The notes below the pieces were generated by a model, which was given only the letters and a program-made list of their open reading frames with translations, was not told the origin of the DNA and made no database searches. A stretch of 64,000 nt of DNA from Halogeometricum limi (GTDB lineage Archaea; Halobacteriota; Halobacteria; Halobacteriales; Haloferacaceae), in assembly GCF_900115785.1 (NCBI RefSeq), contig NZ_FOYS01000003.1, positions 124,001-188,000 on the forward strand. Direction: 5' to 3'. Of the stretch, positions 52,501 to 53,551 are shown piece after piece. Position 1 is the first letter of the stretch. Every line of letters starts with the position of its first letter. Both the position numbers and the translations under genes were made by a program.

Positions 52501-53097
52501 ATGCGACAGTTCGTCATCATCGGTCACGACGCTCCGACGACACCCGATTTCTCGCTCGACGATCTGGCGGGGGGCGCCGGACGTCTGGACGTCCTCTGTC
52601 GGTGCGTCAACTCCGCGTTCTTCCTCTCGCACGCGATACGCGAGGACGTCCGCGTCCACCTCGTCCTCGGCGACGAGTTCACCGTCCGCTTCGAGGGGAG
52701 CGAACTCCGTCGGCTCAATCCCGACGAACGAAGCACGGCGGCGCTGATTCGGGGCGCACTGGAGGTTCGAGAGGAGGCCATCGGTCACATGCCCGCGGAG
52801 GGGAGTCCCGGGGTGAGCATCCGTCGGATGGACTTCGAGGCGACGCTCGACGCCGCCGCCGCGGACGCGACCGTCGTCGAACTCCACGAGGAGGGTGACG
52901 CCGTCGTGGACGTCGAACCCCCGGAGAATCCGCTGTTCGTTCTCTCGGACCACCACGACTTCACGGACGACGAGGCAAGCGTCCTCGCCGATGCGGCGGA
53001 CGAACGCGTCCGCCTCGGACCCGAGGTGTTGCACGCGGACCACTCCATCACCGTCGCGCACAACTACCTCGACACGGACGGGTTCACGACCTACTGA
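52501..53097 (+). CDS. trmY: tRNA (pseudouridine(54)-N1)-methyltransferase TrmY
   Basis: 198 residues from the ATG at 52501. SPOUT-class features: [44 protein letters not shown] at the start and a C-terminal trefoil-knot with [17 protein letters not shown] and [23 protein letters not shown]. TrmY methylates pseudouridine 54 to m1-Psi54 in archaeal tRNAs, using the product of Pus10. It is 63 bp upstream of the tRNA-Pro gene. Confidence 0.95.
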
Positions 53098-53160: not shown

Positions 53161-53233
53161 GGGCCGGTGGGGTAGCTTGGTATCCTTCGGCCTTCGGGTG
53201 GCCGTAACCGCAGTTCGAATCTGCGCCGGCCCA
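53161..53233 (+). tRNA. tRNA-Pro (anticodon CGG)
   Basis: 73 nucleotides fold fully: acceptor GGGCCGG with CCGGCCC, discriminator A at 53233; D arm with GGTA; anticodon stem CGGCC/GGCCG with loop TTCGGGT, anticodon CGG; T arm CGCAG/CTGCG with loop TTCGAAT. It decodes CCG proline codons. No CCA is encoded; the 3' flank is a T-rich terminator. There is no intron. Two partial copies of its 3' portion lie just downstream. Confidence 0.96.
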
Positions 53234-53460
53234 TTTTCACCCCACTCTCTGTTTTTGTGAGCGGTTGTGCTGTAACCGCAGTTCGAATCTGCGCCGCCGC
53301 CGTGAACGGAGTGAACGGCGGGTCGTGACGAGCGAAGCGAAGTCACGGTGGCCCATTTTCACCCCACTCTCTGTTTTTGTGAGCGGTTGTGCTGTAACCG
53401 CAGTTCGAATCTGCGCCGCCGCCGTGAACGGCGTGAACGGCGTGAACGGCGGGTCGTGAC
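53204..53460 (+). repeat. Tandem partial copies of the tRNA-Pro 3' region
   Basis: A 25-bp segment of the tRNA (variable loop, T arm, first acceptor bases) at 53204-53228 recurs exactly at 53272-53296 and 53394-53418. The block from GGCCCATTTT to GTGAACGG (53228-53309) recurs with offset 122 (53350-53431). In the first copy the tRNA 3' end is split: after CTGCGCCG a 54-bp GC-rich segment (53297-53350) intervenes before GCCCATTTT. The second copy lacks the acceptor end. The spacer contains GTGAACGGC repeated two (53302-53319 with one mismatch) or three times. Confidence 0.92.
53234..53256 (+). terminator. T-run terminator of tRNA-Pro
   Basis: TTTT at 53234-53237 and TTTTT at 53252-53256 immediately follow the tRNA and would end its transcription. 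Both are repeated identically at 53356-53359 and 53374-53378 after the partial copy. Confidence 0.6.
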
Positions 53461-53551
53461 GTACTGCGTTCCACGACGGTCGCTAAACACAGTCATTGTT
53501 CATATTTTGAGTTAAATCCGAAGTAGAAATTCACGTTTCAGGACCCAGGAC

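Follow-up and report, generated by a model that had tools for sequence, protein, structure and literature searches.

Copies of tRNA 3′ tails behind a tRNA-Pro(CGG) gene of Halogeometricum limi and a family of palindromic repeat arrays in haloarchaea

The window analysed here, a 64,000-nucleotide stretch of the 3.6-Mb genome of Halogeometricum limi (C3:124001-188000), encodes a single transfer RNA (tRNA) according to ARAGORN, an intact tRNA-Pro(CGG) gene that is followed by partial copies of its own 3′ end. The gene lies at 53161-53233 of the forward strand (window numbering, with all features of the locus given on the same strand). The segment GTAACCGCAGTTCGAATCTGCGCCG, which comprises the variable loop, the T-arm and the start of the acceptor 3′ strand, occupies 53204-53228 of the gene and recurs at 53272-53296 and 53394-53418 with 25 of 25 positions identical, as had been noticed in the initial annotation, which was made from the letters alone. 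The trailer with its two T-runs (53234-53268, direct repeat D1) occurs a second time at 53356-53390. The segment 53350-53442 matches 53228-53320 with 99% identity at an offset of 122 bp, which agrees with the period first proposed and, for this repeat, with the suggestion of a tandem duplication series.

A hairpin in the DNA fold centroid (53261-53279, GCGGTTG/TAACCGC) marks the place where the first tail copy begins. The reported interruption of this copy is real: a 54-nt insert (53297-53350) splits the acceptor 3′ strand and is predicted to fold as DNA into hairpin A (53297-53321) and hairpin B (53324-53347, with GCGAAGC in its loop), and GCCCA (53351-53355) is the leftover 3′ end of the copy. 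The second copy had been described as truncated, which is correct in that the second hairpin and GGCCCA are gone, but it is not plainly cut. It runs into the same insert (53419-53461), where hairpin A is enlarged by one 9-nt repeat (repeat D3) to span 53419-53452 and hairpin B is truncated. Mini-hairpins of the GNA type are present on the tRNA strand, with GCGAAGC within 53331-53340 and ACGGAGT within 53304-53314. In an alignment of the insert 93.8% of cells are paired with little covariation, the informative changes being too few.

The locus was compared with its counterparts in related genomes. A T-arm copy follows this tRNA-Pro(CGG) in each of the four congeners. In three of them (G001, G002 and G003) the two-hairpin insert comes next and then GGCCCA or a variant of it; in the fourth the sequence is truncated within the insert. 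The same insert is found behind tRNA-Pro(CGG) in G076, a member of another genus, and thus the insert predates the genus or was passed between genera. This largely matches the arrangement that would, according to the initial annotation, speak against recent integration, and the proposal of a scar left by repeated integration or excision is not supported. The 122-bp tandem duplication is seen in the window species only and is recent. Congener G004 carries an inverted arm at the same tRNA. At a further tRNA-Pro(CGG) locus (L034, G124:C3) there are three perfect units of 131 bp, each containing the tRNA from its anticodon arm on (CTCTCGGGTGGCCGTAACCGCA); their T-arm is interrupted by hairpins, and the tail copy is longer than elsewhere.

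At 73 other tRNA-Pro(CGG) loci, a search for 21-nt own-tail copies with up to 4 mismatches found them in 15 downstream flanks, in no upstream flank and in none with the reversed tail, which excludes a chance origin of the copies. Within the 288 kb of downstream sequence covered, every copy lies no more than 282 nt downstream and none lies kilobases away. Likewise, the annotated absence of an integrase was confirmed, as the 10 matches to PF00589 in the whole genome include none within C3:124001-188000. A tRNA-integrated tyrosine-recombinase element was rejected as a candidate, given the lack of a PF00589 match in the window and tail copies within 282 nt.

Copies of this kind are widespread behind other tRNA genes. 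We defined the tail as the 21 nt from G53 to the discriminator N73 and took a census of the fetched tRNA loci. In the 300 nt that follow the gene, 24 of 45 tRNAs in H. limi and 18 of 29 in congener G003 have a copy of their own tail, compared with 0-2 for controls using the 5′ part or the middle of the tRNA, the upstream flank or the inverted full tail, and 3.4-6.8% for tails of other tRNAs. A second scoring rule gave 21 of 46 and 17 of 30 tRNAs, and a third 19 of 47 and 26 of 47. In total, 288 tRNA loci yielded 162 tail copies, and the first copy at a locus is mostly 70-130 nt from the tRNA. Across G53-N73, the copies at 114 loci match the tRNA with an identity of 0.92-0.99, and the identity drops outside this segment; because the profile was scanned with the same 21 nt, the inside values are conditioned and the outside drop is not. 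T is frequent at the first two positions past N73 (0.65). The trailer is repeated as well in about 20 of the 114 loci, which represent recent tandem units like those in the window, and near-identical tandem units occur at several loci. An origin by tandem duplication of arbitrary parts of the tRNA was rejected because the copies are tail-only and downstream-only. A narrow pattern search of the H. limi genome gave 4 matches, all beside tRNAs, and the 11-mer GAGCGNAGCGA showed no genome-wide excess (93 occurrences, compared with 98 for the reversed pattern).

The typical unit opens with a trailer hairpin. The T-loop and T-stem 3′ strand come next in inverted copy, then a loop rich in purines that holds GNA mini-hairpins, and finally the direct G53-N73 copy. 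The inverted copy lies 18-60 nt upstream of the tail in 113 of the 162 copies, and its pairing with the tail is 0.86-1.0 across the T-loop and reaches the chance level within the acceptor strand. Inverted arm and tail covary between tRNAs, with 93% of cells paired and 24 double changes, compared with 9.5 in shuffles; as each arm reflects the sequence of the tRNA and the rows were picked by eye, this covariation need not mean selection on structure. Mini-hairpins with a GNA triloop (GCGNAGC, ACGNAGT) on the tRNA strand are present in 86 of the 113 loops, compared with a mean of 20 in shuffles and with 6 for mini-hairpins of the opposite-strand type. Loops of the d(GNA) kind have an unusual stability in DNA. 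Loop lengths of the units cluster near 28, 38, 48 and 58 nt, an increment of roughly 10 nt that corresponds in size to one helical turn.

To follow these units across genomes we built a covariance model, R1, from 22 of them and placed its matches using tRNA coordinates and tRNA-Trp. In H. limi there are 30 matches, of which 29 are behind tRNAs and one (C8:371228) is displaced. R1 was positive in 27 of 28 sampled genomes of the order and in all 16 named haloarchaeal genomes, which hold 1 to 31 units each (27 in Haloferax gibbonsii, 25 in Hfx. denitrificans); counts outside H. limi are approximate, as some matches fall on tRNA 3′ ends or on arrays in the opposite orientation (L249, L278). Because Haloferax species hold 25-27 units by this model, genetics and RNA work on them are feasible. 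Outside the order, one marginal match, inside a tRNA, came from roughly 119 further genomes in the phylum, and since R1 was trained on haloarchaeal sequence divergent arrays could be present there. The lowest counts are zero units in G009 and one in Halorussus salinisoli (G294), and what these genomes lack could point to the mechanism.

Arrays also differ between congeners, with copies at Gly-CCC, Gly-TCC and Arg-CCT in G003 only and at Arg-CCG in H. limi only. Where tails differ between species, the copy tracks its own tRNA for Lys-TTT and partly for Val-CAC and Leu-TAG, and across genera it likewise follows the T-arm variant of the host tRNA-Pro. Across haloarchaea, the family is thus tRNA-specific, tail-only and downstream-only, has a hairpin architecture and undergoes local amplification and turnover.

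The window unit departs from this plan. It has a direct copy of its own tRNA 3′ tail close downstream, though with the acceptor strand split, and GCGGTTG/TAACCGC stands in place of an inverted T-loop and T-stem copy before the tail copy. We call it an atypical member because it lacks the inverted arm and is not among the genome-wide R1 matches, while G004 has the arm. Our strong statements concern the family and not the window copy, since the window locus is atypical and partly rearranged.

The explanation we favour, with about even confidence, is that the locus belongs, as such an atypical member, to a haloarchaea-wide family of palindromic repeat arrays that start from tRNA tails and stay identical through recombination. 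The tail would be duplicated when recombination, or template switching during replication, takes place at the palindrome naturally present in the T-arm. Recombination from tail to tail could then amplify units and hold the copies to the sequence of the host tRNA (concerted evolution), and now and then sequence would be copied from one tRNA locus to another. At the window locus, a two-hairpin insert would have split the acceptor strand of an old unit before the genera separated, and 122 bp would have been duplicated later in the window species. A dedicated integrase would not be required. In its favour are the restriction of the copies to the tails of their own tRNAs and to the downstream side, their sharp limits at G53 and N73, the covarying inverted arm, the link of all R1 matches in the genome to tRNAs, the wide occurrence in haloarchaea, the way copies track the tail variant of their host, the near-identical tandem units, the insert common to congeners and a second genus, and the lack of copies kilobases away. 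Several points weigh against this explanation. Units of different tRNAs in the same genome share internal sequence (an internal 14-mer in 21 of 169 pairs, compared with 2 of 377 for array-free flanks), which simple local duplication does not predict, and from random template switching one would expect a less sharp 5′ boundary than the one at G53. The window unit has no canonical inverted T-arm and does not appear among the R1 matches of its genome at E 0.01, and the active step of array formation was not observed.

The internal sequence common to different loci keeps in play a mechanism involving mobile cassettes, which we consider possible but clearly less probable. The units would be miniature cassettes without genes, which a tyrosine recombinase of the host or of a virus would move by crossing over at the T-loop, and the folded arm-loop-tail hairpin would serve as the attachment site, as in integron attC or CTX-phage attP. 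GTTCRAAT resembles the integron attC core GTTRRRY, a likeness that we take to be formal only. The sharp G53-N73 boundaries, the hairpin at the junction, the sharing of internal sequence and the variable presence between congeners would all fit such cassettes, and archaeal recombinases favour tRNA 3′ ends (PMC8371274). However, a single-tail cassette could re-enter only the same tRNA, yet this kind of hairpin is common to many tRNAs, and no cargo-bearing version was seen. Viral contigs gave no match to a strict pattern, a narrow one that only 10 of 312 loci match, and a looser pattern drew 19 contigs, none of which had a significant unit.

Whether the arrays act as RNA, co-transcribed with the tRNA and providing extra terminators, processing signals or a source of small RNAs, was also considered, and we regard this as improbable. 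The T residues that tend to come after each tail copy are consistent with such a role, as is an architecture like that of the Escherichia coli tyrT locus, which is annotated with the non-coding RNA rttR; E. coli rtT reportedly releases small RNAs. However, half of the tRNA genes have no arrays, turnover between congeners is rapid, and the window transcript region folds as RNA no better than shuffles (z -0.71). In addition, the GNA mini-hairpin is a DNA specialty. A very improbable reading is that the copies represent decayed scars left by integrated viruses or plasmids. In its favour, tRNA tails commonly serve as attachment sites and elements that integrate leave behind 3′ remnants (PMC7921747; PMC3119063), but genuine insertions are kilobases in size and carry an integrase, the insert is common to several species and a second genus, and the narrow unit size and hairpin plan are common to many tRNAs.

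Casposons are marked by terminal inverted repeats and Cas1. Duplication of the casposon type was rejected on its boundaries, with no search aimed at Cas1, as the duplicated segment contains the T-loop and ends at N73, boundaries that do not fit the A. boonei rule of a 14-15-bp duplication from 8 bp downstream of the TCAAATC leader motif (PMC6614799).

The genome also contains what appears to be a real integration. A provirus-like 31.5-kb island (C8:371300-402800; L287, L288) lies between tRNA-Pro(TGG) and its repeat unit, the displaced R1 match at C8:371228, which bears tRNA-Pro(TGG) tails 31.5 kb from the gene. By the far end of the island is an integrase-like gene (PF00589, 22.8 bits, under the Pfam cut-off), which turned up again in the genome-wide PF00589 search. 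This integration looks unlike the window locus, and it moved a repeat unit and did not create one. Proviruses and plasmids integrated in tRNA genes duplicate the tRNA 3′ end, for example 22 or 43 nt in Haloquadratum (PMC3119063); they differ from the arrays in their kilobase-sized inserts with an integrase, and at the one island inspected in H. limi no inverted T-arm hairpin was seen. Tail copies beside tRNAs are not, on their own, evidence of integration.

Among known systems, the closest in plan is the tyrT/tyrV locus of E. coli MG1655 (RttR/rtT, tpr; RF00391), where an intact tRNA is followed by tandem units that each close in a tRNA-tail copy. There, 19-nt tail copies ending exactly at the tRNA 3′ end recur with a period of 178 bp, 10 nt of the tail are present in inverted form (GGGGAAGGAT), and GCGAAGC/GCGCAGC mini-hairpins lie on the tRNA strand between the arms, ahead of the tail copy. 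Its unit is longer and its tail includes CCA, and it is a single locus examined, compared with about half of the tRNAs in haloarchaea. Tandem units ending in a tRNA 3′ copy are shared by the window, but a match to RF00391 is not, since an Rfam scan of the window found nothing above threshold (RF00391 reached 17.4 bits on the opposite strand, with a cut-off of 45). We therefore treat the likeness as one of architecture and not as demonstrated homology.

Partial tRNAs beside full copies have been listed in Haloferax gibbonsii LR2-5 (PMC7921747) and are probably the same phenomenon, although the main text of that study calls them remnants and does not give a repeat family, an inverted arm or a distribution. 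In Methanopyrus kandleri a palindrome is found behind about half of the tRNA genes (PMC5217627), but that motif is short and sits some 10 bp past the gene, and a tail copy is not described there. A search of the open-access literature, which did not extend to subscription papers or supplements, turned up no account of the family, and tail-repeat arrays behind about half of haloarchaeal tRNA genes seem to be undescribed. Scattered tRNA ‘remnants’ in haloarchaeal annotation would become one clade-wide structured phenomenon, and the puzzle of the E. coli tyrT repeats gains an archaeal counterpart in which the mechanism can be tested over dozens of loci. More speculatively, a gene-less repeat family in haloarchaea and at E. 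coli tyrT that spreads via single-stranded DNA hairpins of the host T-arm could represent a new minimal class of mobile DNA, or else a general DNA-structure-driven duplication at tRNA genes; we put this forward only tentatively.

Two regions of the H. limi genome (C8:467673-468139 and C8:599617-600180) contain duplicated tRNA-Asp and tRNA-Arg(GCG) genes that are followed by tail-repeat units, and arrays may promote the duplication of whole tRNA genes. In the window, the tRNA-Pro(CGG) gene is flanked downstream by a gene for a ferritin-like protein (PF13668) and upstream by one for a TrmY-type methyltransferase (52501-53097, PF04013). Enzymes of the latter type modify position 54 in the T-loop, the region copied at this locus, and the place of the gene beside a T-loop copy is probably a coincidence.
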